From contig JACIWQ010000006.1 of the NCBI GenBank assembly GCA_014360895.1, positions 1 through 53,544 on the forward strand: DNA of 53,544 nucleotides, in the 5' to 3' direction. Source of the DNA: Thermoflexales bacterium (GTDB lineage: Bacteria > Chloroflexota > Anaerolineae > B4-G1 > DUEL01). The position numbers and the translations under genes were made by a program. Shown here one piece after another: positions 19,042 through 38,718 of the stretch (positions are counted from its first letter, which is position 1; each line of letters begins with the position of its first letter). Below the pieces are notes generated by a model, which was given only the letters and a program-made list of their open reading frames with translations, made no database searches and was not told the DNA's origin.

Positions 19042-19079
19042 CGTGCCAGGCACTTCCGGGAGTGCCTGGCACGCTTTTT
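19042..19079 (+). terminator. terminator hairpin built from a GTGCCAGGCAC palindrome
   Basis: A perfect 13-bp stem (19042-19054 with 19061-19073) and five T at 19075-19079 end the mutL operon. The T-stretch overlaps the stop codon of the convergent giant kinase gene by two bases. A close copy of the same palindrome lies at 25129-25164. Confidence 0.88.
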
Positions 19080-22000
19080 ACCGGATGGCTCGCTCCAGTT
19101 TGCGCAGCGCCGCCGCGACGTCCTCCAGCAACTCCTCCCTCTGCAGAACCCCTTTCTGAATCAACGCCTCAATCCGATTATTAAGCACCTGACGGTCTCG
19201 CTCCGTCAGCTCTTTGGCCGTGACGACGATGATGGGAATGGCACGGGTGGATTCGTCCGCCTTCAGCGCTTCCAGCACCGCGAACCCGTCCATCTCCGGC
19301 ATCAGCAGGTCCAGGATGATGATGTGCGGGCGCCGCTGATGGACCAGCAGGATGGCCTCCTGCCCGCTGGCCGCCTCCATCACCTCGTACCCCTCCTGGG
19401 TCTCTATCATCCGCCGCAGGAGGTTGCGGTCATCCGGCTGGTCGTCCACCACCAGTACCCGATGGCGGCCTTCCTCCCGGTCCAGGCGATCCAGCGCGGC
19501 CAGCAGGTCCTGCTCCAAGATGGGCTTGACCAGATAATCAGCGGCCCCCAAGCTCAGTCCTCGCCCCTTCTCGGCAACGATGGTGCACATAATGACCGGA
19601 ATGTCCCGGGTTTCGGGGTCCGCCTTCAGTTCCTGGATGACCTGCCAGCCATCCTTGCCGGGCATCATCACATCCAGGGTGATGGCAAAGGGTCGGATTC
19701 GCCGGGCCTCCTCCACCACCCGGAACGGGTCGCTCAGGCCCACCACCCGATAACCCTGTTTATCCAGGTACCGGCGGAAGAGGGTGATGACCCCCTCATC
19801 GTCGTCCACGCAGAGGACAACCCGCCCCGGTTGTTCGGGAGCCGGAGACGTCGCCTCCGCCGGCGGCGGCACCTCCTCCGGCTTCGCCTCCGCCTTCGCG
19901 GGCGGCCCCTGGATGGGCAGGGTGAAGGTGAAGGTGGACCCCTTGCCCAGTTCGCTCTCCACCCATATCTTCCCACCGTGGAGTTCTATGAAGGACTTGC
20001 TGATGGTCAGCCCCAGGCCCGTGCCGCCGTATTTGCGGGATGGGGACGCGTCCACCTGGGTGAAGGCTTCAAAGATGTTGGGCAGTTTCTCCGGCGGAAT
20101 GCCGATGCCGCTATCCGAGACCGAGATGACGACGTAATCCCCATCCACCCGGGCCTCCACCCGAATGAAGCCCTGATCGGTGAACTTGGCCGCGTTGGAG
20201 ACCAGGTTGAGGAGGACCTGCCGCACCCGACGGCTGTCGGCGGTGATAGTGGGTAGGTCAGCTGGGACCGACTGCTGGAGTTCTATGGGCTTATCCTTGA
20301 CCAGGGCGACCGCGGTGGACATCACACCCCGGATAATCTCCTGCAGGTCGGTGGGTTCAAAGGCCAGTTCCATCTTGCCGGCCTCAATCTTGGAGATGTC
20401 CAGGATGTCGTTGATGAGGCCGAGCAGGTGCTGACCGCTATTGAAGATGGCCTCCAGGTCCTGCCGTTGCTGTTCGGTAATGGGCCCGTCAATTCCCTTG
20501 AGAATGACGCGGGAGAAGCCGATGATGGAGTTGAGAGGCGTCCGCAGTTCGTGGGACATGTTGGCCAGGAACTGGGACTTGAGCCGGTCCACCTCCTTGA
20601 GCCGTTCCGCCGTCTCCACCGCCTCCTGGTAGAGGCGGGCATTCTCCCAGGCAACGCTCAGGTTGGCCGCGATGATGCGCAGGAACTCCAGTTCGCCCTC
20701 ATCAATGGGCGGATGTCCCGGCTGCCGGGCCAGGACTAACAGCCCCAACGGCTGTCCACGGATGACCAGGGGGGCCAGAGCCGCATCCAGCAGGCCCAAC
20801 TCGCGCGCGACCGCCGTCATCCGTCCACCTGCTGCGATGCGCGGAATATCCCGCAGCACAGTCACGTCGGGGCTGAAGAGGGCGTCCACCAGTGGCTTAG
20901 CTCGCTGCCGATCCATAACAAGCGCTGATGGGGGCGGCAGCGGGAACCCGGCCCCCAGGTGGTTCACCGCGGCGGCCACCCGTAGCCCATCGGCCGCAGC
21001 GTCCCATTCCAGGATGGCCACCGGCATCTCCAGCCGCTGGGCGACAACCGCGGCAGCCCGGCGGAGCAATTCGTAGGGATCCATCGTCGCGGCGGCCACC
21101 TGGAGCACCTCGCTGATGAGGGCCCGGCGGCGGGCCTCCGCCTCTGTCTCGGCGAAGAGTCGGGCGTTCTCCAGCGCGACCCCGGCCTGACTGGCCAGAG
21201 AGGTCAGCAGGAGCACATCGGCCGGGGTGAAGGCACCGGCCCGGTCGCTCTGGACGTCCAGCACGCCGATGACTCGCCCTTTGACCTCAATCGGCACAAC
21301 CAGTTCCGCGCGGGTAGCCGACAGTTCCGGGACGGTGATGAACCGGGGATCGCTCATCACGTCGTTGACCAGCACGGGTTGCCCGAGCCGCGCGGCATCG
21401 GTTGCGATACCGGGCCGGTTTATATCCAGCGTAAGACTGCGGGGTGGAAGACGGCGGTCGGTGTTCCCGATGGTGCTTCCGTCCTCAAAGACCAGATGGC
21501 GGTCCTCCGCCAGTAAAATGCCAATAAAGTAGTAGCCGAAGCGGGATTTGGTGATGTCCACAATTTGCCGGACCAGGGCCTGGGGGTCCAGAACCGAACT
21601 GATGGTGCGGCCGATTTCGTTGATGGCCTCCAGTTCCCGGGCCCGGCGGCGGGTCTCCTCCAGCAGGCGCAGGTTTTCCATCGCGATGGCGGCCTGACCA
21701 CAGAGGGTCCACAGGTTGCGGAGCAGCCGCTCGGGGTAGGTGGAAGGAGTATCCCGCCCGATCAGGAGCGCGCCCAGAATCCGCCCACCGATGGAGATGG
21801 GCACCAGGGCAAAAGAGCGCAACCGCACAACCTCCAGGAGAGTCCGGGCCTGGGCGTCCATGCGCGGGTCGGCGTAGATGTCCTCCACTGCGAAGGTCTC
21901 GGTGGGCTGAACGAACGGGCGCAGGCCGAAATCGGCCAGGGGGATACGGGTACCGTATGGATGGACCGGACGGCCATCCACAGCCCAATGCTCGCCCATC

Positions 22001-25000
22001 ACGACGTGCGTGGGTTTCTCCGGCGTATCTATGAGCAGAATTCGGGCCAGGTCTAGGCCGGCGCGGGCGGCGTACCCGATCAGCGCCTGGGCCACCTCTG
22101 TCTGGGAGGTCGCCGCGCCGATGGCCCGGCTGGCCTCAAAGAGTTCGCGGGTCTCCGTCAGGCTCTGGCTGGTCTCGGCGAAGAGCCGGGCGTTCTCAAT
22201 GGCTGTCGCCAATTGGTCGGCCATCGTCTGCAGAGCCGTGATGTCCTCCTCGGTGAAGGCAGCGGGACGGTCGGACTGAATGGTCATCGCGCCGATGACC
22301 CGGCCCCGGGAGATGAGCGGCAGGGCCATCTCGGAGCGGGTGTGCGGGAGGAGAGGGTTGTCAAACCGGATAGCTTCCACCCCCACGTCCAGCGCGATGC
22401 GGGCCTTCGCGTTGGCCGTGCACCAGCCGATCATAGAGCGGCCGCCGACCTCCAGTTTATGGCCCATCTCCAGCATCTGTTTCCCGGCCTCGCCCGTGCC
22501 GGCCCGCAGGACGGCCCAGCGGCCCGCCTCGTCCAGCAGGAAAATACCGACGTAGTAGAGGTCAAACCGCTGACGGATCAGTTCGGCCGCCTGCGGGAGA
22601 AGTTCTTCCAGGCTCAGGATGGAGGATGCGGCGGCGGAGACCTCGGCAGCGGTAGCCAGTTGGGCAGCCCGACGGGTCGTCTCTTCCAGCAGGCGGCGGT
22701 TCTCCAGCGCCACCGCCACCTGGTCGGCGATGGTGCGGACCCGGCGGATGTGCTCTTCGGAGAGGCCCGTGACCGGATTGGGGCTGATGAAACTCAGGAA
22801 ACCCAGGGCCCGCCCGAAGAGGCTCACCCCGGCGGTGACCATCCCGCGCATGCCCATGTTGCGGGTGGTCTCCCGGACTTCGTCGGGGATGTCCGCACTG
22901 GGGTCCTCCACGTCGGGGTAGACCAGGATGAAGTCCGGCTCATCCAGGACCCGGCGGGCGGCCTTCCGGTCGGCGATGGGGAAAGCTTGCATAGACGGGA
23001 GGGCCATCCATTCCTCACCGGCTGCCACCACCGGGTAGATGTCGCCGTGGGTGGGAATTCCGTCCGGGTCGGTCAGGGTGGCGACGGTCAGGGAGCAGGC
23101 CGTAAAGCCCAGGAGTCCCGCCACTTCGGCAGCGCCGCGCACGATACCTTCCACGGAGGTCGCCTCGCTGATGGCCCGGGCGGCCCGGTAGAGGGCCTCG
23201 GTCTCAGAGAGGGCCTGGCGCACCTCCTCCAGACGGCGGATGGATTGGACGGCGACGGCGGCCTGGCCGGCCAGACTCATCAGGCGGCGCACATCCGCCT
23301 CGGGGAACTCGCGCGGCTGGCTGTAAATGGCATTGACGTACCCGATCCACTGCCCGGCCACCACCAGGGGCACAAAAATGGTGCTCCCGGCCTGGAAGCG
23401 GTCCCGATAGAGGGCCCGCGCTCGCTCATCCATCCGGGGATCGGTCACCACATCGGAGATGATGGTCGGCGCATCGGGCCGGAGCAGGCGGGTCGCAGAA
23501 GGAAAGGCACGCAGGGGATACCGGTCGCCCAAAGCTTCCGACGGCAGCCGGGTCCAGCGGGCCACCGGGATGCTCCACTCCGGCACATCCTCGCCCACCC
23601 AGGGCCGATTGTAGAGGTTCAGGCTTACGTTACGGTCGGCCTCGCCCACCAGGGTGTATTTCTGCAGGACGGCCAGGATTTCATCGTAGGACTGGGCGGC
23701 GTTCAGTTCCGCGCTGGCCTGGTAGAGCATCTCCGTCTCGGCCAGGGCCTGCTGGGTCTGCTCAAAGAGACGCCGGTTCTCCAGCGCCAGCGCCAGTCCT
23801 TCCTGGACCGTCGTGATCAGGGCCAGTTCGTCCTCCGTCCAGGCCCGCGGGCCGGTTTCCTCCAGCCCCAACCAGCCAACAGGTTGTCTACCCACCATCA
23901 CAGGGGCCAGGAGAAGGGAACGCCCATCATGCTCCATAATCACCGGACGGTCCGGAGGCATATCCACGACCGGTATGGGAAGGGGATGGGAAAGCGGCGA
24001 GAGGGTCTCCAGGTCGTAGAGGTATCCGAGGGGCTCCTCCGGCCGACGGCTGAGGTAGGCCCCCCATTCCTGCCGGATATAACGGCTCTGGATAGCCTCC
24101 ATCTGCCGGAGGTTCTCCCGGAACTGCTCAAAGAGCCGGGCGTTCTGGATCGCGATGGCCAGTTGGTCTGCGACAATCTCAAAGGTGGTGATGTCCTCTG
24201 GGGAAAAAGCGGCCTCGCGATCGCTCTGGACCGTCAGCGCACCGATGACGGCGTCGCCCGCGATCAGGGGAATGGCCAGTTCGGACCGGGTGTTCGGGAG
24301 GAGAGGGTTCTCAAAGCGGACAGCCTCCGCGCCCACATCCAGGGCAATGCGCGGCTGGCGGTTGGCGATACACCAGCCGATCATGGAATGGCCACCGACC
24401 TCCAGCCGATACCCCTCCTCCACCATCTTACGCCCCGCCTCACCGGTGCCCGCCTTCAGAACGGCGTACCGGCCCGCTTCATCCACCAGGAAGAGACCCA
24501 CGTAATAGAGACCGAACTCCCGGAGGAGTACATCCACGGAAGTCTGGAGGAGAGTGGGTAAGTCCAGGATGGAAGTTGCTGCCCGAGCGACTTCGGCGGC
24601 CGCTTGAAGTTGAGTCTGGCGCCGCTGTAGCGCGGCCAGGGCCTCTTGCTCCCGTTGGACCTGTTCCTCCAAGGCAGCTCCCAGAACCCGATAGGTCCGT
24701 TCCAACTCGGTGATTGCGTCCTTTGTGCGGACATCCACCAGGGTCAAGAACCATCGGGAGCGATATGCTTCCAGGTGGGAGGCAACGGCCTTAAAGGCCC
24801 CCTCATCCAGGCTCTCCAGCAGAGTCTGGGAGAGCGCGCCCAATGCCTCTACCGCTGCCTGGGGGCTCAGGCCCATCCGAACCCACTCCCCTATGCGGTG
24901 AGAGCAATCCTCTTCCTGAAGGGTGCCAGCGGCCTGCTGGAGAAACATCTCCACCAGTTGCCGGCTGACCTCCGGGACGGGGCGAACAGAGGCCATGCGG

Positions 25001-25116
25001 CCGGTATTGTGAAATACGTTCCGGCGCAGAGCCTCTGCGACTCGCTCCTGCAAAACCGGTCGTTGGTCCTCCAGTGTCCTCAGAAGTTCAAGACGGTCCA
25101 TTCCCCACTCTTCCAT
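19078..25116 (-). CDS. giant soluble multi-GAF hybrid histidine kinase with two receivers
   Basis: A 2012-residue intact frame. Residues 1-150 form a helical domain also found in the 153-aa and 686-aa neighbours (RsbRD_N-like by my reading). About eight GAF units follow, spanning roughly 170-1505; the second (345-455) is a short form. HisKA has SHELRTPL (phospho-His near 1522). HATPase_c is at about 1625-1745 ([16 protein letters not shown]). A Pro/Glu-rich linker leads to receiver 1 (about 1765-1880, [10 protein letters not shown]) and receiver 2 (about 1885-2005, [10 protein letters not shown]). No membrane segment is present, so it is cytosolic. It is the last gene of the sensor cluster and probably its integration hub. 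The start could be 25116 or the ATG at 25101; neither has a strong ribosome site. Confidence 0.93.
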
Positions 25117-25172: not shown

Positions 25173-25967
25173 TCACCGCTTGACCAGGATGGCCCCGTAG
25201 AACTCCAGGCCCACCCCCTCCCGGTCCGCCTCGGTAATCTGGTCCTGAAGCCCCAGCCACTCCGCCAGGGGCCGGAACCCGGGTTCGTCGGCCTCCCACG
25301 GTTTCATCCATTCTATGGACTGCTCCAGAGTCAGGAAGTGATAGGGGCTCCCCATCCGGTCAAACATATCCAAGAACTGCTGCATTTGCGGGGTCATCAG
25401 ATGGGGGTCCTTAGTCTCAAATGTGCCAAACATCCTGCTTCCCGGAGCAGCCCATTCGTAGAGCGCCCGGGCAATCCGCTTAACCTCCTCCTCGGTCAGA
25501 AAACAGGTCACCGCATTGAAACCAATAGCGATTTTCCGGTTGTCCCCAAAGAGCTCCCCGATCACTGGGGAGCGCAAAAGGGAGTCTATATCCCGAATGT
25601 CCGCCTCAATATAGCGAACCCGGGGGTTCCCCTCCAGCAATTGGGTGCCATAAGCGACAACAACCGGGTCGTTGTCTACATAAATGACTTTGGCATGAGG
25701 AACGACCTGGTGGATGTGCTCCACCGTCGGCAACCCGGATGCGAGGTCCAGAAAGCAGTCAAACCCTTCCTCGCTGAGCTGGAGCACCGCCTCGTGGAGG
25801 AACATCCGGAGCATCCGGACCCACTTGCGGGTGGAAGGAACCAGGCTGATCATATACTCGGCGGCCTGGCGGTCCGCCTCAAAGTTGTGTGTACCGCCGA
25901 GGACGTAGTCGTAGACTCGCCCGGCGTTGGGGATATTGGGATCCATAGCAGCGACGCGGCGTTCCAT
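25173..25967 (-). CDS. DUF574-family SAM-dependent methyltransferase (copy 2)
   Basis: A 264-residue protein of the DUF574/Methyltransf_19 type. The family's N-terminal signature is clear: PNAGRVYDYVLGGTHNFEAD near residue 13, followed by DLASGLPT as the SAM-binding loop and VIYVDNDPVV as the acidic end of the second strand. The substrate of this family is not known to me. It is paralogous to the gene at 28756-29550 (same length). The ATG at 25967 follows AGGAGG. It lies between the 686-aa GAF protein and the giant kinase, both of which carry the same N-terminal helical domain. Confidence 0.85.
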   Translation of the reverse strand: MERRVAAMDPNIPNAGRVYDYVLGGTHNFEADRQAAEYMISLVPSTRKWVRMLRMFLHEAVLQLSEEGFDCFLDLASGLPTVEHIHQVVPHAKVIYVDNDPVVVAYGTQLLEGNPRVRYIEADIRDIDSLLRSPVIGELFGDNRKIAIGFNAVTCFLTEEEVKRIARALYEWAAPGSRMFGTFETKDPHLMTPQMQQFLDMFDRMGSPYHFLTLEQSIEWMKPWEADEPGFRPLAEWLGLQDQITEADREGVGLEFYGAILVKR

Positions 25968-26012
25968 GAGATTCCTCCTGAAGATAGATTTGCAATTCTC
26001 CCAAGGGCGGCC

Positions 26013-28073
26013 TCACATTCCAGCCGACGGAGCGTGGTCGTCACCCCCTTCGGGAATGCCCAGTTGGATAAAGGTTCGGGGAACCCGGAGCGCACGGCCC
26101 AGTTCCCGAGTAGCAACCTGAAGCACACCTTGCACATCCGGAGCGGATTCAATTTGCTCCAGAATCTGACGAGCCAGCCGCTCCCGCTCTGCCCGCTGCT
26201 GGGCCTCCTTGTAGGAGCGCGCGTTCTGCAGGGCAATCGCCACCTGGCTGGCAATGGCTGTCATCAGGTCCAGGTCGTGCTGGCCGTACGCCCGCGGCGT
26301 CGTGTAACTCTGCACCGCCATGACACCCAAGACCTGCTCGCCCACTATCAGCGGTACGCCCAGCCAGGATTGGGCTATCCGCCCAATCTGATCCACCCCC
26401 ATCTCCTGCAGGTGGGCCGGGATGTCCTCTTCTATCAACACCGGCTTCTTGTTCCGGATGATGTATTCGGTCAGGCCGTTGGCAAAGGGACGGGTTCGGT
26501 AAGGCTGCCGCTCATTCTCTTCTACAAACAACGGGAAAATCACCTCTTCCCGCTGGAGGTCGTAAAGGGCGATGTAAAAGTTGGTGGCATCCAACAGGCG
26601 GCTGGCACCCCGGTAAGCTTCCTCCAACACCTGCTGCACGTCCAGTTGGGCCGCGAGGGCCTGGCCCAGTTCGTTCAGGACGGCCAGTTCCTCCGCCCGC
26701 AGGCGGGCCTCCTCAAAGAGACGGGCATTCTCAACCGCCATCGCCACCTGGGCCGAGATGGCCTCCACCAGGGCGATTTCTTCGGCGGACCAGGACCGCT
26801 CCCGTTCCACCTCGTAGAGACCCAGCGCACCGACGACCTCTCCACGCACAACCAGGGGCACCGCCAGGGCAGCTTTCGGGGCTATTCCTGTATCTGCGGG
26901 CAGAGCGGTCGGGGCGGCACCGGAGAGGGCAACAGCCGTGCCCTTCTGTACCACTTCGTCCATCGCCGGCCACCAGCCATCCGTCAGCGGAGAGAGGGAG
27001 GCCGAGGGCCCTTCGTAGGCATACCCCACCGGCCGATGCTCCCTCCACGTGGAGATGAATTGCGACCACTCCTCCCGCAAATAGCGGCGGTGGACGGCCT
27101 CTATTTCCCGTACCCGTGCCTGAACCTCGGCGAACAGTCGGGCATTCTCCAACGCCGAGGCAACCTGGGAGGCGAGAACCTGAAAGGCCGTCACGTCCTC
27201 GGGGGTAAATCCTGGCGTCCGGCGACTGCAGAGCACCAGGGCCCCTGCGGCGCGGCCGCGCGCGACCAGAGGCAAAATCGCCTCCGCCCGGGTCTCCGGG
27301 AGCAATGGGGTCCAGCGAGTAGTACGTTCGCCCACCTCGTAAAAAACAAGGGGCTCAGACCGGGCAATACACTGCCCGATAGATGACTCGTCTCCCACCT
27401 GCAGTTTGAGGCCCGGGGCAAGGGTTTCCGTCCCCTCCTCTCCCTCGCCGGCCCGCAGGACGGCCCATTGGCCATACTCGTCCGTCAGGAAAATGCCCGC
27501 ATAGTAGAGGTTGAAGCGCTCCCGGATCAGGCGAGCGGCCATCTGGAGCAGTTCTTCCGGGTCCACAACCCCGGAGAGCGCCTGGGCGACCTCCGTGGCA
27601 ACCTCCAGCCGATGGGAAGCGGCGCGGAGTGCCCGCTCAAGGGCGGTGCGGATTTTTTCCTGTTCCTCCAGCACCAGCGCTTCCCGGGCCCCCAGGTACC
27701 CTTCCATAAAGGCCGCCGTGTAGGTATCGGTGGCCCGCAGGCCTTCCAGGAGCAAGTCGCTCGTCAGATGGGCCGCGCAGAAGAGCCGGAGGGTAGTTGC
27801 CAAATCCAGGACGGCCCGCTCCGAGAGCCCGTCCCGCAGCCGCCGGGCTCCCCGCTCCCGAACCGGGGCCAGGTCGCCGTCCTCCAGGAAAGCCAGGAAG
27901 GCCTCCGCCTCCTCCTGGGCTATCTGCCGCAGGTGGGCCGGTCGGATGGTGACGCGGTTAGTAAAGAGCGTCGCCTGGAGCGATTCCCAGAGCCGGGCTA
28001 CCAGTTCCTCACGCTGAGCTGCCAGTTGTTGGTTGAGTGTGGCCTGAGGTTTCTCCATAGCCTGAAAAGTCAT
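26013..28073 (-). CDS. soluble GAF sensor without output domain (helical N-domain + 3 GAF)
   Basis: A 686-residue cytosolic protein. Residues 15-150 are the helical domain shared with the giant kinase and the 153-aa protein. GAF A follows at about 155-315, then a short-form GAF at 316-455 (with YLREEW and GYAYEG) and GAF C at 456-625. Residues 625-686 are the half-GAF tail seen in all the kinase-less sensors. No HisKA, HATPase, GGDEF, EAL or phosphatase domain is present, so signalling must go through a partner. GAF C is almost identical to GAF 6 of the 1349-aa protein. The ATG at 28073 lacks a clear ribosome site, and the one at 28058 is an alternative. Confidence 0.88.
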   Translation of the reverse strand: MTFQAMEKPQATLNQQLAAQREELVARLWESLQATLFTNRVTIRPAHLRQIAQEEAEAFLAFLEDGDLAPVRERGARRLRDGLSERAVLDLATTLRLFCAAHLTSDLLLEGLRATDTYTAAFMEGYLGAREALVLEEQEKIRTALERALRAASHRLEVATEVAQALSGVVDPEELLQMAARLIRERFNLYYAGIFLTDEYGQWAVLRAGEGEEGTETLAPGLKLQVGDESSIGQCIARSEPLVFYEVGERTTRWTPLLPETRAEAILPLVARGRAAGALVLCSRRTPGFTPEDVTAFQVLASQVASALENARLFAEVQARVREIEAVHRRYLREEWSQFISTWREHRPVGYAYEGPSASLSPLTDGWWPAMDEVVQKGTAVALSGAAPTALPADTGIAPKAALAVPLVVRGEVVGALGLYEVERERSWSAEEIALVEAISAQVAMAVENARLFEEARLRAEELAVLNELGQALAAQLDVQQVLEEAYRGASRLLDATNFYIALYDLQREEVIFPLFVEENERQPYRTRPFANGLTEYIIRNKKPVLIEEDIPAHLQEMGVDQIGRIAQSWLGVPLIVGEQVLGVMAVQSYTTPRAYGQHDLDLMTAIASQVAIALQNARSYKEAQQRAERERLARQILEQIESAPDVQGVLQVATRELGRALRVPRTFIQLGIPEGGDDHAPSAGM

Positions 28074-28115
28074 TTTCCAAGAGTTACGCCTGCTCTATCT
28101 TGATAAGAATGGGGC

Positions 28116-28186
28116 GTAGCGCAGGCCGTTTCGCCTGCAAAAGACCGCCACTCGCCCGCCTTTACAGGCCTGGCGGCCTGCGCTAC
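28116..28186. repeat. inverted repeat GTAGCGCAGGCCG ... CGGCCTGCGCTAC
   Basis: Perfect 13-bp arms at 28116-28128 and 28174-28186 with a 45-bp interior, in the 211-bp spacer between two sensor-cluster genes. It looks like a dispersed palindromic element. Confidence 0.8.
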
Positions 28187-28205
28187 GTTCTTCGGTCCTC
28201 TCATT

Positions 28206-28280
28206 TCACCGCAGAGACGCAGAGGCACGCAGAGCAATAGCTCAGAGAAAACCCGGCGCCCTCCGCGTTCTCTGCGGTGA
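28206..28280. repeat. inverted repeat TCACCGCAGAGA ... TCTCTGCGGTGA
   Basis: Perfect 12-bp arms at 28206-28217 and 28269-28280. Its outer sequence (CACCGCAGAGACGCAGAG) resembles a palindrome seen between genes in many bacteria. The right arm ends a few bases before the stop codon of the 153-aa gene. Confidence 0.8.
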
Positions 28281-28284
28281 TTGC

Positions 28285-28746
28285 TCACTGGCCTTCCCTC
28301 TGCAGGGCCCGCAGGAGTGCCTGGCGGGTCTTCTCCTGCTGCTCCAGAATGCTTTCCTCCCGGGCCACCATATACCCTTCCAGGAAGGCGCGGGTGTAGC
28401 GGCCGATGGCCCCCTGGAGCGACGGCCAGAGTTCCACCTCGGGGTTGGCGCTCTCCCAACCCACCTCCTGGAGGGCCTGGACCAGAGCCAGGACCGAACG
28501 ATGGCTCAGGCCCTGCTGGGCCAGGGCGCGGCCCCGCTCCCGCACCACCCCTTCATCCCCATCGCTCAGGAAGGCCAGGAACGCCTCCGCCTCCTGGCGC
28601 GCGAACTCGGCCAGTTGCCGGGGGGGGAAAAGCGCGCGGTTGGTGAAGGCGTGCTCCTCCAGCGCCGCGCGCATCCGGGCGGCGAGGGCTTCCCGGCGAG
28701 TTTCTACGCGCTTCCGCAGTTCCTCCATGCCGACCTCGCTGCCCAT
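28285..28746 (-). CDS. stand-alone helical sensor-type domain protein
   Basis: A 153-residue all-helical protein that consists of only the domain found at the N terminus of the 686-aa GAF protein and, more divergently, of the giant kinase. Shared features are the HAFTNR/LFTNR turn, RQEAEAFLAFL followed by DGD and VRERG, and a final charged helix EEQEK/EQQEKT. I compare it to the RsbRD N-terminal domain family, but this is from memory of fold and pattern only. It starts 9 bp after the methyltransferase gene. The start at 28746 has AGGGGG upstream; 28728 is an alternative with GAGGT. Confidence 0.75.
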   Translation of the reverse strand: MGSEVGMEELRKRVETRREALAARMRAALEEHAFTNRALFPPRQLAEFARQEAEAFLAFLSDGDEGVVRERGRALAQQGLSHRSVLALVQALQEVGWESANPEVELWPSLQGAIGRYTRAFLEGYMVAREESILEQQEKTRQALLRALQREGQ

Positions 28747-28755
28747 AGCGTCCCC

Positions 28756-29550
28756 CTACTTGACCAGATAGACCCCGTAGCCGCCACCACCAGCAGCGAT
28801 GAACTGTTTATCGTCTTCGGTCATTGTGTCTTGCAGGCCATGCCATTCCTCCAGTGTACGAAATCCCAACTCATCAGGCTGCCAGGGCTGGACCAACTCC
28901 CGAAATACAGCCAGAGGGCGGTAATAAACCGGTTCTCCAATCTGGCGGTAGAAATCCAAAATCCTTTTAGCAGTAGGATGCTCGGGATTGCCCTCCATCA
29001 AAAAGACCGCCCAACAGCTGCCCTCGTCAGACCAGTCATAGAGAACACGAGCCACGTTGGCGATTTCCTCATCTGTCATAAACCCCGTAATCGCCCAATA
29101 GACAAAAGCTACACGCCGATTGCCCCCCAGGATGGCCTCCACCTCGGGGCGGTTCAGGAGTTCCTCCGGGCGGCGGCAATCGGCCTGGAAGTAGTAGACG
29201 TTGGGAGTATCGCCCAGAATCTCCCTGGAGTACTCCACGCAGATCGGGTCCCGGTCGGAGTAGATGACGACGGTGCCGGGCGCCACCGCCGTGTGAAGAT
29301 GCCCCATCGTCGGCAATCCGGAGGCGAAATCTATGATACACCGGTAGCCTCGCTCGTAAGTCAGTGTCCGGGCGATGTCTTGCAGACACCAGCGAGTCAG
29401 GCGCACCATCTTCGGCACAAAGGGAGCAAGCGATTTTATAAAGTCTCCAGCGCGCCGATCCACCTCAAAGTTGTGGTGGCCGCCCAGGAGATAGTCGTAG
29501 ATACGGCCGGGGTTGGGCTTGGTAGTATCCAGAAGGCTTTTCTCGGACAT
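28756..29550 (-). CDS. DUF574-family SAM-dependent methyltransferase (copy 1)
   Basis: A 264-residue paralogue of the protein at 25173-25967, with PNPGRIYDYLLGGHHNFEVD near residue 12, the DFASGLPT SAM loop and VVIYSDRDPI. The ATG at 29550 is preceded by GGAGGT. It follows the 1349-aa sensor after a 121-bp spacer with tandem heptads and is directly followed by the 153-aa helical-domain gene. In both copies the methyltransferase sits next to genes encoding that helical domain, so the two may work together. The substrate is unknown. Confidence 0.85.
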   Translation of the reverse strand: MSEKSLLDTTKPNPGRIYDYLLGGHHNFEVDRRAGDFIKSLAPFVPKMVRLTRWCLQDIARTLTYERGYRCIIDFASGLPTMGHLHTAVAPGTVVIYSDRDPICVEYSREILGDTPNVYYFQADCRRPEELLNRPEVEAILGGNRRVAFVYWAITGFMTDEEIANVARVLYDWSDEGSCWAVFLMEGNPEHPTAKRILDFYRQIGEPVYYRPLAVFRELVQPWQPDELGFRTLEEWHGLQDTMTEDDKQFIAAGGGGYGVYLVK

Positions 29551-29671: not shown

Positions 29672-32600
29672 CTACGGCTTCCCCAGCCGCACCACAGCGT
29701 GGGAGGTGCCCAGGGCCTGGCCCAGTTCCCGGACGGCGGTCTGGAGGACGGTCTCCAGGTCGGGGGAAGCCCATACCCTGGCCGTGACCTCACGGATGAC
29801 GCGCTCCCGCTCGGCCCGCCGCTGGGCCTCCTCGTAGGAGCGGGCGTTCTGTAGGGCAATCGCCACCTGGCTGGCGATGGCGGTGAGGAGGTCCTGGTCG
29901 TGGCGGTCATAGGCGCGTGGGGTGGTGTAACTCTGCACCGCCATCACGCCCAGAACCCGATCCCCCACCATCAGCGGTACACCCAGCCATGAGAGCGCCG
30001 TCCGCCCAACCTGTTCTATCCCCATCTCCTGCAGGTGGGCCGGGACGTCCTCTTCTATCAACACCGGCTTCTTGTTCCGGATGACGTATTCCGTCAGGCC
30101 GTTAGCGAAGGGACGGCTGCGGTAGTGCCGCCGTTGGTTTTCTTCTATCGCCAGCGGGAAACTCACGATTCCTTGCTGGAGATCATAGAGCGCAATATAG
30201 AAGTTGGTGGTGTCCAGCAGGCGGCTGGCACCCCGGTAAGCTTCCTCCAACACCTGCTGCACGTCCAGTTGAGCCGTGAGGGCCTGGCCCAGTTCGTTCA
30301 GGACGGCCAGTTCCTCCGCCCGCAGGCGGGCCTCCTCAAAGAGGCGGGCATTGGCCAGGGCGTTGGCGATGTAGCCCGCGACCGCCCGGGCCAGGCGGAC
30401 CTCGTCGTGCCCGAAACCGCGTGGGCGGTTGACGAAATAGAGTTCGCCAATGCTCTGGTCCCGGACGCGCAGGGCCACGCCGCAGAAGTTACGGCCTCCC
30501 AGTCGTTCCAGATATGGGAGGTAGGCCGGAATCAAGTCGGGGTCCGCCGAACCCAGGTTGGAATAATAGGCACCACCCCGAGCAAAGATGCCCTGCTCCA
30601 TCCCCGGTGCGTCCACCGGCACCTCCCAACTCTGGGTTTCCCGAAGGAGCTCGCCCCGATGCAACACCAGCCGGGCCTGTAATGCCCGGGCGTCCTCGTC
30701 GTACATAAACAGCACAGCGCTTTCGGCCTCCAAGAGAGGGACGGCCTCCCGCAATACGCTCTCCAGGAGCGGCTCCAGTTCCAGGGTGGAGACAGCCAGG
30801 GCGGCAATGCGGGCCAGACCCTCCTGCTCCATCGCCCGCTCCTGGGCTTCGGAGTACAGCCGCGCATTCTGAATGGCGATAGCAGCCTGATCCATCAGCG
30901 TGGAGAGAAGCCGCAGTTCCTCCTCCGTCACCCGGTCCTTCCGGCTCCGGTCCCAACTGACCTCCACCACGCCAATGTTGCGTTCCTGGAAACGGAGGGG
31001 CGTAAAGACCCGCAGGTAGCGCTCGTGGCCGTACTTCTCCCAAATTTCCCGGTTGAAGCGGTCATCCCACCCAACGATGACCTCTGTGCGGCCCGTCCGA
31101 TAGACATCGGCGACGATGTCCGGATGGTCCAGGGGGTAGCGGGTCTTATCCAGCCACTCCGGATAGCGGTCCAACTCACCCTCCCAGATGCCATGGTTGA
31201 AGCCAATGGTTCCTGCACTCTCATCCACGAGAGAGACGATGGCAAACTCACAGCCCAGGAGCCGGTAAATCCTCTCCAGAATAGCCCGTATGACCTGATC
31301 TTCCTCCAGAGTAGAGGAGAGAGTACGGCCAGTCTCGTAGAGGACCTGCATCTGCTCGGCGGTCCGGCGGGCCTCCTCGTAGAGGCGGGCGTTCTGAACG
31401 GCGACGGCGGCCTGGGCCGCCACGGCCGTCGCCAGCGCGGCCGTCTCCTCGTTGTACAGTCCCGGCTGGCGATGGTCCATCAGCAGGAAGCCGATGACCT
31501 CCTCGCCTAGGACCATCGGGACGGCCATGCCGGAGCGGGCCCCGCGCCGCTTCCAGCGCGGGTCGGTGCGGGCATCGGCGATGACCACGGGCGCGCGGGT
31601 CCGGATGACCTCCGCCAGCAGCGGGTCCTGGGAAACGGGCGGCTGCTTCTCCAGCCATCGCCGCATAGCGTCCAGTTCTATCCCCCGCCCGCCGATAATC
31701 TCCCGCCGCTCTCCCCGCAGCAGGTGAATGACGGCGACGTCAAAGGGGATGAGCCGCTCCAGTTGGTCCAGCAGCCGGTGAGTCACCTCCTCCAGGTCCA
31801 GGGTGGAGCCGACAAGGCGAGCGATTTCCTGGAGGGTGTCGGCGACGAAGCGGCGGCGCTGCTCCATCTGGTAGAGGCGAGCGCTCTCCAGGGCCAGGGC
31901 CACCTGTTCGCTGACGGCCTGGACGAGCGCGATTTCGTCCTCCGTCCAAGGGCGGGCCTCATCGGTCTCTTCCAGAGCGATGGCGCCGATGACCTCGTCG
32001 TACAGGCGGAGGGGGGCCGCCAGGACGGCCCGGCCATTATCCAGTTCATGGAGGGCAACGACCCGTCCCTGCCGCAGCGCCTCTTCCACCGCCGGGACCG
32101 GCGGCGGCACCTCCACCGGGGTGATCGCTACCCGGTCGTAGACCAGGGCAGGCGGAAGGCCCTCCATCCGTCCCCAGGCCTCGCGGACCCGCTCCCCGTA
32201 GAGGGCACGGAGTTCTTCCAGCGCGCGGCGGCTTTCCTCCAGCAGGCGCGCATTCTCAATGGCCACCGCAATCTGGTCGGCCATCGTCTGTAGGACGGCC
32301 ACGTCCTCCTCGGTAAAGGCGGCGGGCTCTTCGGACTGCACATCCAGCACGCCGATGACCCGATCCCCCACCTTCAGCGGCAGGGCCATCTCCGAGCGGG
32401 TGAGCGGCAGGTCAGGGTTGTCAAAAAAGACGGCGTCCTTCCCCACATCCAGCGCGATGCGGGGCTTCCCCGTCCCCGCCACGTAGCCGACGATGCCCAC
32501 CCTTCCCACGGCCAGCCGGTGGCCCCGGGCCAGCATTCGCCGCCCACCCTCCGAGGAGGCCGCCCGCAGGACGGCGTACTCTCCGGCCTCGTCCACCAGG

Positions 32601-33721
32601 AAAATGCCCGCGTGGTAGAAGCCGAAGCGCTCGGAGATGAGGCGGACCGTCTCGTCCAGAAGGATGTCCACATCACGGATTTCGGCGGCGCTGCGGGCAA
32701 CATAGGCCGCCGCCTCCAGTTGGGCTGTCCGGCGGGCCAGGTCGGCGGTGCGCTCGTTGACCCGCTGCTCCAGGGTGTCAATGGCCTCGCGGATTCGCAG
32801 CGAAGCCTCCAGGAAGGCCCGCGCCAGAACGCCGATTTCGTCCGGCCGGGCCAGCGAAGTCTGCAACTCTCCCCTCTCCACAACTCCGCCCTTCTCCATC
32901 TCCGCCGCCGCGTCGGAGAGACCCTGAATCGGGCGGATGACGCGCCGGCCCACCTCCCGGTTCAGCCAGAAGAACCCGAAAGCGGCCAGCCCAACGAAGA
33001 GGGCAATGACGCCAGCCCCATAAACACCCTGGCGGAGAATCTGATTCCGATAAGACCGGCGGATAGCTTCCGCCTGTTCCTGCATCTGCACTACCGGGCG
33101 GGAGAACTCGTCAATGTAGGTGGTGGCGGCGATCATCAGTGTCTGGCCATGGAAGGGAACCCGCACCGGGGTCATCGTCATATACTTCTGGCGAATGGAC
33201 CCGTCGGGCTCCACCCAGTCATAGTACCCGGAGACTTCCACTCCCGCCAGGCTTGGCTCAAAGATGGCCCACCAGGAGGGAAGCTGGTCCTTCAGGAACT
33301 CCATCTTCTGGTCAATCAGCGCTGGGTTCGGGTGGATGCGCATGATGCCGGTTCCAGCTTCGTAGAGGCAGGCATACCCGGTTTCTCCGACCGGCTGCAT
33401 CGCGATCCGGACAAATTCCGGGTCCGATTGGAGGTCCCGCATGGTCGCCTCGGGATGGGCAGCCAGGTAAATTTCCACCTGGGTGGCCACATCCCGGGCA
33501 ACGGTCTGGATATACTGCTCGCCCAATCGCCGGAGGGACTCTTCGGCCTGCGTGGCTATCTCCTGGGTCACGACGTCCATCATCCGGGCCGTATAGCGAT
33601 ACACATAGACCAGGGTCGCGACCAGAAACAGAAGGGCCAGAAGGTATGGAACGGTCCCTAACCCATATATTCTCCGGAATTGCTGGGCAATGGAATGTGC
33701 ACGCTGATTAAATGACTTCAT
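29672..33721 (-). CDS. membrane Cache-HAMP sensor with six GAF units and no output domain
   Basis: A 1349-residue receptor. A membrane segment at about 24-44 and an extracellular Cache-like domain at 45-230 (contains TGYACLYEAGTGIMRIHPN and SGYYDWVEPDG) are followed by a second membrane segment at about 236-256 and HAMP at 257-310. Six GAF units come next: GAF 1 at 335-495, a short form at 496-625 (REAWGRM), then GAF 3-6 up to about 1290. The half-GAF tail fills the last 55 residues. No kinase, cyclase or methyl-accepting domain is present. GAF 1 is almost identical to GAF 1 of three neighbours. The ATG at 33721 follows AAGGGA. The ligand is unknown; Cache domains usually bind small organic molecules. 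Confidence 0.9.
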   Translation of the reverse strand: MKSFNQRAHSIAQQFRRIYGLGTVPYLLALLFLVATLVYVYRYTARMMDVVTQEIATQAEESLRRLGEQYIQTVARDVATQVEIYLAAHPEATMRDLQSDPEFVRIAMQPVGETGYACLYEAGTGIMRIHPNPALIDQKMEFLKDQLPSWWAIFEPSLAGVEVSGYYDWVEPDGSIRQKYMTMTPVRVPFHGQTLMIAATTYIDEFSRPVVQMQEQAEAIRRSYRNQILRQGVYGAGVIALFVGLAAFGFFWLNREVGRRVIRPIQGLSDAAAEMEKGGVVERGELQTSLARPDEIGVLARAFLEASLRIREAIDTLEQRVNERTADLARRTAQLEAAAYVARSAAEIRDVDILLDETVRLISERFGFYHAGIFLVDEAGEYAVLRAASSEGGRRMLARGHRLAVGRVGIVGYVAGTGKPRIALDVGKDAVFFDNPDLPLTRSEMALPLKVGDRVIGVLDVQSEEPAAFTEEDVAVLQTMADQIAVAIENARLLEESRRALEELRALYGERVREAWGRMEGLPPALVYDRVAITPVEVPPPVPAVEEALRQGRVVALHELDNGRAVLAAPLRLYDEVIGAIALEETDEARPWTEDEIALVQAVSEQVALALESARLYQMEQRRRFVADTLQEIARLVGSTLDLEEVTHRLLDQLERLIPFDVAVIHLLRGERREIIGGRGIELDAMRRWLEKQPPVSQDPLLAEVIRTRAPVVIADARTDPRWKRRGARSGMAVPMVLGEEVIGFLLMDHRQPGLYNEETAALATAVAAQAAVAVQNARLYEEARRTAEQMQVLYETGRTLSSTLEEDQVIRAILERIYRLLGCEFAIVSLVDESAGTIGFNHGIWEGELDRYPEWLDKTRYPLDHPDIVADVYRTGRTEVIVGWDDRFNREIWEKYGHERYLRVFTPLRFQERNIGVVEVSWDRSRKDRVTEEELRLLSTLMDQAAIAIQNARLYSEAQERAMEQEGLARIAALAVSTLELEPLLESVLREAVPLLEAESAVLFMYDEDARALQARLVLHRGELLRETQSWEVPVDAPGMEQGIFARGGAYYSNLGSADPDLIPAYLPYLERLGGRNFCGVALRVRDQSIGELYFVNRPRGFGHDEVRLARAVAGYIANALANARLFEEARLRAEELAVLNELGQALTAQLDVQQVLEEAYRGASRLLDTTNFYIALYDLQQGIVSFPLAIEENQRRHYRSRPFANGLTEYVIRNKKPVLIEEDVPAHLQEMGIEQVGRTALSWLGVPLMVGDRVLGVMAVQSYTTPRAYDRHDQDLLTAIASQVAIALQNARSYEEAQRRAERERVIREVTARVWASPDLETVLQTAVRELGQALGTSHAVVRLGKP

Positions 33722-33741
33722 TCCCTTACCCCTCCACTGGG

Positions 33742-35805
33742 CTACTCCGGTTGGGCCGGCGGTTCTCCGGCAATCCGTGTACCAGGAATCATCTGCACCA
33801 CCACCCGGTCCACCCCCAGGACAGCTCCCAGTTCGCGCGCGGCGGTGCGCAGGACCGCCTCCGGGTCCATAGAGGCGCGCACCCGGGCCGTGATTTCGGC
33901 GATCCGGCGGTCCCGCTCCGCGTGGCGGCGGGTCTCCTCCAGCAGGCGGGCGTTCTCCAGCGCCAGGGCCAGCCGGTCGGCGATCTCCTCCACCATCCGC
34001 ACCGCCTCCGGCGGGACCTCCGGGGTCGCGAAGCGCAGATTCAGCGCGCCAATCACCTGGCCACGCAGTTTCACCGGGACGGCCAGAAGGGTGCCGACGG
34101 CCCGACCATCCCCCTCCGCGTAAACGGGCTGCAGGACCGGACGGCCCTCAGCGAGGGCGCGGCGGGCTTCCTCCGGCAGTTCCTCCGCCGGTTCGGGAGC
34201 CAGGCGACGGTAGCGGCGGCCCACCCAGCGACGGGCCCGCCGCACAGCCTGCCAGGCCTCGCGGGTGTACTCGCCGTAGACCCGCTCCAGTTCCCGCACC
34301 GTTCGCTCCATCTGTTCCAGGGTGCGAGCATTCTCCACCGCCAGGGCAATCTGGTCGGCCATCGTCTGCAGAACCGCCACGTCTTCCTGAGTAAACGCAG
34401 CCGGTTCCTCCGACTGCACGTCCAGTACACCGATGATCCGCTCCCCCACCTTCAGCGGCAGGGCCATCTCCGAACGGGTCAGCGGCAGGTCGGGGTTGTC
34501 AAAGAAGACGGCGTCCTCTCCCACATCCAGCGCAATCCGCGGCTCCCCTATCCCCGCCACGTAGCCGACGATGCCGACCTGGCCCACTTTCAACCGGTGG
34601 CCCCGGGTCAGCATCCGCTGCCCACCCTCGGAGGAGGCGGCCTGGAGAACGGCATATTCCCCCCGCTCATCCAGCAGGAAGATGCCCGCGTGATAGAAAC
34701 CAAAACGGTCGGAGATGAGGCGCACCGCCTCGTTCAACAGGGCATCCACATCGCGGAATTCAGCGGCGCGGCGGGCCACATAGGCCGCCGCCTCCAGTTG
34801 GGCCGTCCGGCGGGCCAGTTCTGCCGTCCGCGCGGCAACCTGGTCCTCCAGGCCCGTGTGGAGTGCCTGCAGCCGGCTCACCATCTCGTTGAAAGCAATC
34901 GTCAGGCGGCCCGTCTCATCGGTGGAGACCAGTTCCCCTCGGCGGCTCAGGTCTCCCCGCTCCACCTCGGCCATCGTGGCTGTGAGACGCTGGATGGGGT
35001 TAGCAATCAGGCGGGCCAGGAGAACGGAGAATCCCACACTGATGAATAGGCTCACCAGACTCAGAAGCAGGATGTGGCGATGCATCTCCTGGAGGACCAG
35101 AACCGGATTAGCCCCCGGTGCCAGCGCCTGCTCGCTCTTCCGATAGGCGAGCGTTCCAATCATCAGGAGCGTCGTCAAAGCCAGAGCAGCATAGACAAAC
35201 AGCATTCGGGTCTGGATTCCCGGGCCCGCCAGGTACCGATGGTGGACAGAAGAGGAGCGAATAAGGACCTCTTGGCGCACCGGCCAGAGGAGCCATTCTA
35301 GTGCGAAGTAATAGTAGACGGCAATCCAGGTTGTGGCGACCAGGCCTCCTATCAGGAAGTAAGGAATGTTGGAGGACCGGATGCCGATAACCGCATAACC
35401 CAGTACAATGCCAGGCACCACCACAATCAGAACTGTGTTGACAAAGGCAAAACGAGCGAAACGCCAGGGGAAAGCCGTTGCCTCATGCCAGATGGCCTCC
35501 TCTTTTTCGGCTGGCAAGCCGTCTTTGCGCCACAAGGCCTCCCGCAGAAGACGGGTGCTCCGCCAGGCGTAAAGGAGCCCGGAAAGATTGGCAGCGATCA
35601 CAAGCACGGCAACCAAGGCAATCAGGGCAAGGGTTTGCTCTGCGGTCAGCACGGCCGTGGCCGCAATGTAGTAGAAGCCCAGGGCTGCAGCGGGCACCGA
35701 GGCCATCTCGGCCAGTGCTGCCACACGCCAGATGTAATGCTCCCTCCAGCGGGAAAGGAGCCGGCTCAAGAACAACAGGTCCGGACGGATTCCTTGTCTT
35801 GGCAT
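33742..35805 (-). CDS. six-TM HAMP sensor with two GAF units and no output domain
   Basis: A 687-residue membrane protein. Six hydrophobic segments occupy about residues 25-280, the last leading into a HAMP domain (ANPIQRLTATMAEVERGDLS). A coiled coil, GAF 1 (about 345-505) and a short-form GAF (about 506-635; TREAWQAV) follow, then the half-GAF tail. The 6TM-HAMP layout recalls mycobacterial Rv1318c-type cyclases, but the cyclase is missing. I set the start at 35805 (MPRQGIRPD), 16 bp after the Uma2 stop. The open frame extends to 36129, but that extension is antisense-like sequence across the Uma2 gene and lacks a ribosome site. Confidence 0.88.
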   Translation of the reverse strand: MPRQGIRPDLLFLSRLLSRWREHYIWRVAALAEMASVPAAALGFYYIAATAVLTAEQTLALIALVAVLVIAANLSGLLYAWRSTRLLREALWRKDGLPAEKEEAIWHEATAFPWRFARFAFVNTVLIVVVPGIVLGYAVIGIRSSNIPYFLIGGLVATTWIAVYYYFALEWLLWPVRQEVLIRSSSVHHRYLAGPGIQTRMLFVYAALALTTLLMIGTLAYRKSEQALAPGANPVLVLQEMHRHILLLSLVSLFISVGFSVLLARLIANPIQRLTATMAEVERGDLSRRGELVSTDETGRLTIAFNEMVSRLQALHTGLEDQVAARTAELARRTAQLEAAAYVARRAAEFRDVDALLNEAVRLISDRFGFYHAGIFLLDERGEYAVLQAASSEGGQRMLTRGHRLKVGQVGIVGYVAGIGEPRIALDVGEDAVFFDNPDLPLTRSEMALPLKVGERIIGVLDVQSEEPAAFTQEDVAVLQTMADQIALAVENARTLEQMERTVRELERVYGEYTREAWQAVRRARRWVGRRYRRLAPEPAEELPEEARRALAEGRPVLQPVYAEGDGRAVGTLLAVPVKLRGQVIGALNLRFATPEVPPEAVRMVEEIADRLALALENARLLEETRRHAERDRRIAEITARVRASMDPEAVLRTAARELGAVLGVDRVVVQMIPGTRIAGEPPAQPE

Positions 35806-35821
35806 ATCTTCCGTATCTCCA

Positions 35822-36427
35822 CTACGGTTCCCAGAGTTCGTCCACTTCCAGCGAAAAGCCAGGCAGGGTCTGTGCCGCCACTCGCTGGTCGGCGCTATAC
35901 TCCCCGGCCAGGCGGTAAGCCGTCCCCTCCAGAACGTAGATGGCAACGGTCCGGCGCTCGGGATCAACGAGCCAGTATTCGGGAATGCCCGCCAGGGCGT
36001 ATTCCAACATCTTCGGGCCCGTGTCCAGCATCTGGGTTGAAGGAGAGAGAACCTCCGCCACGAAATCCGGTATTCCGCTGACCTGTTCACCCACCCGGTC
36101 CAGGTGCTCGGCTTTATAGTAGGCCACATCGGGCTCCCGAATTTTCAGGGGCCAGAGACGGATCGGCGCTGGGGCAATCAGCACCCGGCCCGGCGCCGGC
36201 AGAGCACGGGCATACGTTCGGAGAGCCGAGGCCAGGTTCAGGACAACGGTCTGATGGGAGACGGTCGGCATCATATGGAAAACAACCCTTCCATTATCCA
36301 GTTCCACGTAGGCATTTCCCCGGTTCGCCAGGTCCAGATACACATCTTCTCCCCAGACCCTTTCGGCGAACCACTCATAGAGCGTCTGCTCCGGCGTTTT
36401 TACCTCCGGGTAAGTTAGAACCCTCAT
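35822..36427 (-). CDS. Uma2-family PD-(D/E)XK endonuclease-like protein
   Basis: A 201-residue protein of the Uma2 (DUF820) family, with the restriction-endonuclease-like fold. Signature segments are EPDVAYYK, then DFVAEVLSPST, and KMLEYALAGIPEYWLVDPE. The likely metal ligands are the Asp of EPDV and the Glu of AEVLSP. The family is abundant in Cyanobacteria and Chloroflexota and its biological role is unsettled. The ATG at 36427 has GAGGAAG upstream. It lies in the sensor operon between two GAF sensors (43 and 16 bp gaps). Confidence 0.88.
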   Translation of the reverse strand: MRVLTYPEVKTPEQTLYEWFAERVWGEDVYLDLANRGNAYVELDNGRVVFHMMPTVSHQTVVLNLASALRTYARALPAPGRVLIAPAPIRLWPLKIREPDVAYYKAEHLDRVGEQVSGIPDFVAEVLSPSTQMLDTGPKMLEYALAGIPEYWLVDPERRTVAIYVLEGTAYRLAGEYSADQRVAAQTLPGFSLEVDELWEP

Positions 36428-36470
36428 GGCTTCCTCTATAGAACTCGCCGCAGTGCCCCCGGGCTTTTGC

Positions 36471-38351: not shown

Positions 38352-38358
38352 TACCTCG

Positions 38359-38718
38359 TCACAACGATACCTCGTCAGCGTGCGTGTAGACCTCAATGCC
38401 CAGTTCCCGGGCCACCCGCATCGCCCGCTCCTCCACTATCTCCTCCCAGCGCCGCTCCGATTCCGCCCGCTGTTCCTCCCAACGGCGATTCCACTCCGCC
38501 CGCTGCTCCTCCCAGCGGCGGTTCCACTCCTCCCGGTCCCGGCGCAGTTCTTCCAGCAGTTGCTCAAAGCGGCTCTCCGTCTGAGCCCGGTCGGCGAAGC
38601 GCTCCTCCGCAATCTGGAGAACCCAGGCCCGAATTTCCGGATCCTGGCGCACCAGTTCCGGCAGTTCCTGACGGATAAGGGCTATAACATCCTGGTCTCC
38701 CTTAATCGCCATGGCCAT
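38359..38718 (-). CDS. short coiled-coil protein, DUF3782-like N-terminal part only
   Basis: A 119-residue charged protein. Residues 1-40 (ELPELVRQDPEIRAWVLQI) match the pattern I remember for DUF3782-type proteins, which are common in Cyanobacteria and Chloroflexota and usually continue into a nuclease-like domain. Here a coiled coil of repeated RRWEEQRAEWN units (about 55-90) is followed by only 25 more residues, so the nuclease-like part is missing. It may be a truncated remnant or a free-standing coil. The start overlaps the end of the upstream sensor gene by 17 bp. Confidence 0.65.
   Translation of the reverse strand: MAMAIKGDQDVIALIRQELPELVRQDPEIRAWVLQIAEERFADRAQTESRFEQLLEELRRDREEWNRRWEEQRAEWNRRWEEQRAESERRWEEIVEERAMRVARELGIEVYTHADEVSL

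Follow-up and report, generated by a model that had tools for sequence, protein, structure and literature searches.

Methyltransferases of the DUF574 family are conserved beside a globin-like sensor domain in Chloroflexota and Streptomyces

Why should genes for DUF574 methyltransferases alternate with copies of a single helical domain? The question is raised by a window of 53,544 nucleotides (contig JACIWQ010000006.1) from a Thermoflexales bacterium of the Chloroflexota, whose draft genome (GCA_014360895.1) counts 262 contigs and is 96% complete; all positions below are window positions. Five genes lie there on the minus strand. In the order of transcription, they encode M29, a DUF574 (Methyltransf_19) S-adenosylmethionine (SAM) methyltransferase of 264 amino acids (aa) (28756..29550); H153, the helical domain alone in 153 aa (28285..28746); GAF686, a 686-aa protein with the domain and three GAF domains, seen by Pfam as three stretches (26013..28073); M25, a second DUF574 SAM methyltransferase of 264 aa (25173..25967); and HK2012, 2012 aa long, in which the domain is joined to multiple GAF, HisKA, HATPase and two receiver domains recognized with Pfam (19078..25116). 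The first-pass annotation had given this same order at this place, within an interval too short for HK2012 only, as that gene runs on past its end. The genes are closely spaced, with gaps of 9 bp (M29-H153), 45 bp (GAF686-M25) and 56 bp (M25-HK2012). We conclude that a DUF574 enzyme and a non-haem globin-like sensor almost certainly form a real, conserved two-gene signalling module, which is new as far as the literature shows, no earlier description having been found.

Conservation of the gene pair

With H153 alone as a query against 60 relatives, seven genomes were matched, and a DUF574 gene was adjacent in four (G006, G016, G021 and G030). A 15-row profile of the domain searched in 400 Chloroflexota genomes matched 14 other genomes, several of them weakly (E 1e-4 to 1e-8); 10 of the 14 have DUF574, and in all 10 the match lay less than 200 bp from it. 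We also searched 396 Anaerolineae genomes with a wider 39-row profile and found both partners in 49, the domain only in 23, DUF574 only in 11 and neither in 313. When the training genomes were excluded, the corresponding counts were 36, 21, 11 and 313 (Fisher p ~5e-26), numbers that contain some fragmentary matches and come from genomes related by descent, hence not independent. The co-occurrence that the first-pass annotation had proposed as a check is thus found beyond the source genome. The 39-row profile was partly trained on DUF574-adjacent domains and so favours that subfamily, a bias to which the 15-row search is less exposed.

In the held-out genomes, the domain was found within 3 kb of 38 of the 57 DUF574 matches, for a chance expectation of ~0.13. 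All 38 pairs were on the same strand, with the domain downstream in 37. Such adjacency in 32 held-out genomes led us to reject chance or local duplication. Distances between enzymes correlated with those between domains (r 0.72, n=53 pairs, reached by none of 2000 permutations), shared species descent being included in this value. A methyltransferase-domain fusion protein was not found among the loci searched. Some loci departed from the simple pair: three tandem DUF574 genes stood directly upstream of a single globin-like-domain kinase in genome G146 (L093:6558-9144), and at two others (L237:1-950 and L236:396-2092) a stand-alone globin-like domain had both a DUF574 gene and a further domain gene as neighbours.

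Several of the searched actinobacteria carry many DUF574 copies; of some 30 DUF574 loci examined in this group, 2 had the domain next door. For one of these, a Streptomyces locus studied with 40 relatives, the orthologue group (at least 75% identity) numbered 22, itself included, and all 22 orthologues shared a 4-bp overlap with a gene that begins with the domain. The ~50% identical paralogues examined in the Streptomyces relatives were mostly free of such an overlap. The overlapped gene (L234:3829-6764, and L238-L259) encodes a 711-aa globin-like-PAS-GGDEF-EAL protein. Because the record of Streptomyces sp. NBC_01237 carries the same gene pair (79% DNA identity over 99%), we assigned the pair to the genus Streptomyces. 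Direct comparison of the window-type profile with the Streptomyces domains had to be discarded, as it gave no match (probability 5%). A Chloroflexota group, g4, bridges the two, at 96% to the window type and 99% to Streptomyces, with a reversed decoy at 0.2%. The functional link between DUF574 and the domain suspected by the first-pass annotation is strongly supported by conserved adjacency both across Chloroflexota and in Streptomyces.

A congener, G006, offered a view of how the window arrangement may have arisen. Its kinase is a single gene that matches GAF686 in residues 1-330 (70-72% identity) and HK2012 in residues 481-2013 (75-89% identity). The N-terminal domain of HK2012 resembles instead that of the kinases adjoining M25-type enzymes at L027-L029 (E 1e-16 to 1e-20). 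These similarities support the view that M25 and a sensor domain of the M25 type form one block, either gained here or lost from G006. G006 would look just the same after a deletion caused by recombination between GAF repeats, and the comparison therefore supports only the joint travel of M25 and its domain.

A globin-like sensor with exchangeable outputs

We then considered whether H153, GAF686 and HK2012 do share one domain. H153 and the N-terminus of GAF686 are 45% identical over the domain (E 3e-30), which an iterated profile placed at 27597..28064 with 153 bits. The likeness between H153 and the N-terminus of HK2012 is fainter (27% identity, E 0.03). A profile built without HK2012-type rows matched residues 3-154 of HK2012 with 25.9 bits, the best of 200 shuffles reaching 10.4, and profile-profile comparison of the domain with the HK2012-type group gave a probability of 97.5%. 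The 45% identity and the profile matches to HK2012 together establish that there are three copies of one domain, as had been claimed from the letters alone, the HK2012 copy (24640..25116) being a divergent subtype like that beside the M25-type enzymes at L027-L029.

An AlphaFold2 model of H153, made from six sequences, was all helical (mean pLDDT 87). Foldseek matches in the PDB were mostly globins, with some of phycobiliprotein type; they were weak (best E 0.07, probability 1.00). VIA-align gave Z 14.1 for a globin-coupled sensor, 14.0 for a phycobilisome linker globin domain, 13.2 for the RsbR N-terminal domain (2bnl_B) and 12.1 over 142 residues for pXO1-118 (3pmd), values which near 13-14 are by themselves marginal for a helical protein. 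A globin fold is nonetheless backed by the fact that nearly all the structural rows listed belong to the globin superfamily, and by relatives fused to STAS as in RsbR, so that we regard the modelled domain as a globin fold. Since the best Z values are tied within about 1-2 units, its exact globin family is not settled. Pfam does not represent the domain, its RsbRD_N model (PF14361) matching 1 of 39 domains at E 0.035, and no credible match emerged when solved structures were searched by sequence, whether H153 or the wide profile was the query.

No His- or Cys-rich column was seen among 103 domains, and the domain is devoid of conserved haem or bilin ligand residues. A haem-sensing globin was rejected for want of a conserved proximal His column. 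A photoglobin or other bilin globin was likewise rejected: photoglobins and bilin-binding globins are marked by the Cys motif CXQD or CXRD (PMC10151467) or by an adjoining B12-binding domain, whereas here no Cys column was conserved and the scanned partners showed no B12-binding domain above cut-off. What is conserved lies in the linker helix, where the H153 motif L134-A143 (LEQQEKTRQA, 28318..28347) contains a conserved [E/Q]-Q-E. Among 86 DUF574-linked domains, 97% have an acidic residue in the column of E138, as do all the unlinked ones; this residue sits on the helix leaving the globin core, and E and Q alternate two positions earlier. A methylatable glutamate conserved specially in DUF574-linked domains was looked for and not found.

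The partners take several forms: the domain alone, the domain with STAS, the domain with GAF/PAS and histidine kinase, with or without a receiver and, in actinobacteria, the domain with PAS-GGDEF-EAL. The globin-STAS relatives (L109, L114, L118 and L130) are proteins of 271-296 aa; Pfam found no STAS domain in the three window copies. The sensor domain is thus constant and the attached output exchangeable. DUF574 genes devoid of the domain were also met, beside GAF/PAS histidine kinases (L219, L226) or a LuxR-type regulator (L218); at these loci and at L221, they lie upstream of GAF/PAS kinases with OmpR-type regulators, or overlap a LuxR-type response regulator.

Two known systems are close to these proteins. 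The stressosome protein RsbR (PDB 2bnl) shares the globin fold, the lack of a conserved haem ligand, a helix that leads into the output and, among the relatives of the domain, the globin-STAS architecture. It differs in that the RsbRD_N model misses the domain studied here, in that outputs are here mostly kinases, and in the DUF574 partner, which is not known from stressosome operons. The second system consists of the plasmid-encoded pXO1-118 and pXO2-61 (SkiA) with BA2291, where a non-haem globin sensor likewise exists both stand-alone and as the N-terminus of a histidine kinase; this likeness comes from structure, with no sequence match found, and we know of no methyltransferase in that system. 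There the stand-alone copy, pXO1-118 or pXO2-61, inhibits through the kinase BA2291 (PMC5862856).

What the methyltransferases may act on

Both enzymes belong to DUF574, as first proposed, with 164.9 bits for M25 and 150.8 for M29 against a PF04672 cut-off of 26, and they are the only two DUF574 genes of the source genome. Their mutual identity is 41%, whereas M25 is 63-68% identical to homologues of other Anaerolineae, the closest being Chloroflexi/Anaerolineae metagenome-assembled genomes; they are thus not recent tandem duplicates and belong to two older subfamilies. Neither copy has lost its SAM-binding residues: the alignment shows D-x-x-SGLPT, Y-x-D-x-DP and then AD in both, which in M29 read DFASGLPT, YSDRDP and QAD. 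SAM motif I spans D74-T81 in M29 (29308..29331; D74 and S77-T81 columns invariant) and in M25 (DLASGLPT, 25725..25748; invariant alignment columns). The N-terminal signature of the family, YDYxLGGxxNFExDR, is conserved in both, and the family conserves further motifs besides those that bind SAM.

The solved chain nearest to M29 by sequence is 3giw (E 2e-25). In structural comparison, the AlphaFold2 model of M25 (pLDDT 86) met the DUF574 structures 3giw and 2qe6 first (Z 26), followed by LCMT1, PPM1, mycobacterial PPM-type proteins and TYW4 (Z 18-19, ~240 residues, rmsd 3.1-3.6, which denotes a common fold and says nothing on common function), then by general class I enzymes (Z about 16-17). 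LCMT1, PPM1 and TYW4 methylate carboxylates. As they are the nearest fold relatives, carboxyl methylation is the best guess, and the modelled DUF574 enzyme is most likely a carboxyl O-methyltransferase. LCMT/PPM profiles remained below cut-off (Pfam LCM, PF04072, 17.6 against 22.3 bits, E 0.004; TIGR00027, 19.1 against 93.55), and the Pfam scan of the methyltransferases showed no CheR-family match, only Methyltransf_19. LCMT1 and PPM1, at Z 18.5-19.3, are only 8-12% identical to M25, and their substrate is a C-terminal leucine, whereas the partners here have no common C-terminus. C-terminal carboxyl methylation of the PP2A kind was therefore rejected, the stand-alone partners ending in unrelated residues (REGQ, QRSE, GQA, DQR). 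Our literature search found no assigned substrate for DUF574, the rare mentions of the family not concerning function; the 3giw structure does contain an unidentified phenylalanine-like ligand (PMC2954221).

We lean, tentatively, towards a mechanism in which DUF574 acts on a small carboxylate or hydrophobic ligand sensed by the globin-like domain. A small-molecule substrate is favoured by the ligand of 3giw, by the domain-free kinase neighbours and by the triple methyltransferases that precede one kinase in G146. In particular, DUF574 beside domain-free kinases or a LuxR regulator slightly favours a small molecule over the domain itself, and its presence beside domain-free GAF/PAS kinases would be unexpected were the domain its sole substrate. 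The methyltransferase would then set the input state of the adjoining sensor domain, by making or removing the molecule bound in the globin-like pocket, and the kinase or other output would be informed of binding through the long C-terminal linker helix. H153, which is output-free, may buffer or compete for ligand or dimerisation, and the single large hybrid kinase would be fed by two pairs of enzyme and domain, M29 and H153 on the one hand and M25 and the N-terminus of HK2012 on the other. A model for such a ligand is offered by PhcB-PhcS quorum sensing, likened here by description only, in which a SAM methyltransferase makes a methyl ester that a histidine kinase senses (PMC8578825).

Several points weigh against this view. 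Shared descent is part of the enzyme-domain correlation; in 11 genomes of Anaerolineae DUF574 occurs and no domain was detected, while 23 carry the domain but no DUF574; and most actinobacterial DUF574 paralogues have no domain next door. Strict pairing and translational coupling fit a protein substrate equally well, and LCMT1 and PPM1, the nearest characterised fold relatives, methylate protein. Substrate, ligand and complex are all putative.

A protein substrate is indeed what a rival explanation proposes, one that we consider possible if on the unlikely side: the methyltransferase would modify the sensor domain itself, most plausibly at the linker-helix [E/Q]-Q-E glutamate, thereby tuning the signal for adaptation, as the first-pass annotation had in mind, much as CheR tunes chemoreceptor signalling. 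The constancy of the domain while outputs vary, the pairing in cis with its 4-bp overlap, the near-invariant acidic E138 on the exit helix with E/Q two positions before, and the action of LCMT1 and PPM1 on protein carboxylates all agree with it. However, E138 acidity is equally conserved in domains with no adjoining DUF574, DUF574 pairs also with domain-free kinases, and the neighbours scanned, in a search that was not systematic, included no recognisable methylesterase of the CheB kind. Tight pairing, correlated divergence and the retention of SAM motifs would also suit a non-catalytic or slow partner, which binds the sensor directly and reports the level of SAM or S-adenosylhomocysteine, that is, the metabolic state. 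We find this improbable, as the family conserves motifs beyond SAM binding and direct binding is only putative. Improbable, too, is an enzyme that has an unrelated substrate and only shares its regulation with the sensor, being an output of one and the same pathway; the 11 genomes with DUF574 and no detected domain, and the mostly domain-free actinobacterial expansion, speak for it, but adjacency survives from order to order, between phyla and whatever the output type, and the sensor domain is what stays constant.

Surroundings of the module and its Streptomyces counterpart

The five module genes prolong an array, situated upstream at positions 29672-38396 and sharing their strand, of large, mutually very similar GAF-domain proteins with predicted membrane segments. 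Within this array, a 231-aa open reading frame (35822-36517), Uma2-type nuclease-like by eye, overlaps the called start of a 795-aa GAF protein, whose real start is probably farther downstream than called.

The Streptomyces pair can probably be given a name. The rmdA gene (PAS-PAC-GGDEF-EAL) is thought to be operonic with vnz33670 (PMC6205966). In S. ghanaensis, RmdA is 714 aa long, with SCO0928 as the S. coelicolor orthologue (PMC7911125), and SCO0929 is named a SAM-dependent methyltransferase (PMC13170358) and probably belongs to the targets of AdpA (PMC4021200). Output domains are equal, lengths compare (711 and 714 aa) and a partner gene lies upstream, so that, from these descriptions, the pair is probably SCO0929-SCO0928 and the domain gene rmdA. 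A difference is that the domain lists published for RmdA, in the literature consulted, are without a globin-like domain. It is an unlikely, wider prospect that the pair represents a general methyl-based module, probably using a diffusible or metabolic methyl ester, which serves two-component, stressosome-like and cyclic-di-GMP outputs and controls RmdA, a phosphodiesterase of Streptomyces development.

DUF574 is a multi-copy family with solved structures and an unassigned substrate, for which a conserved partner provides the first concrete lead. Should the pair in Streptomyces prove to be vnz33670-rmdA, the module would be immediately testable in a genetically tractable model, in which rmdA has a clear developmental phenotype.

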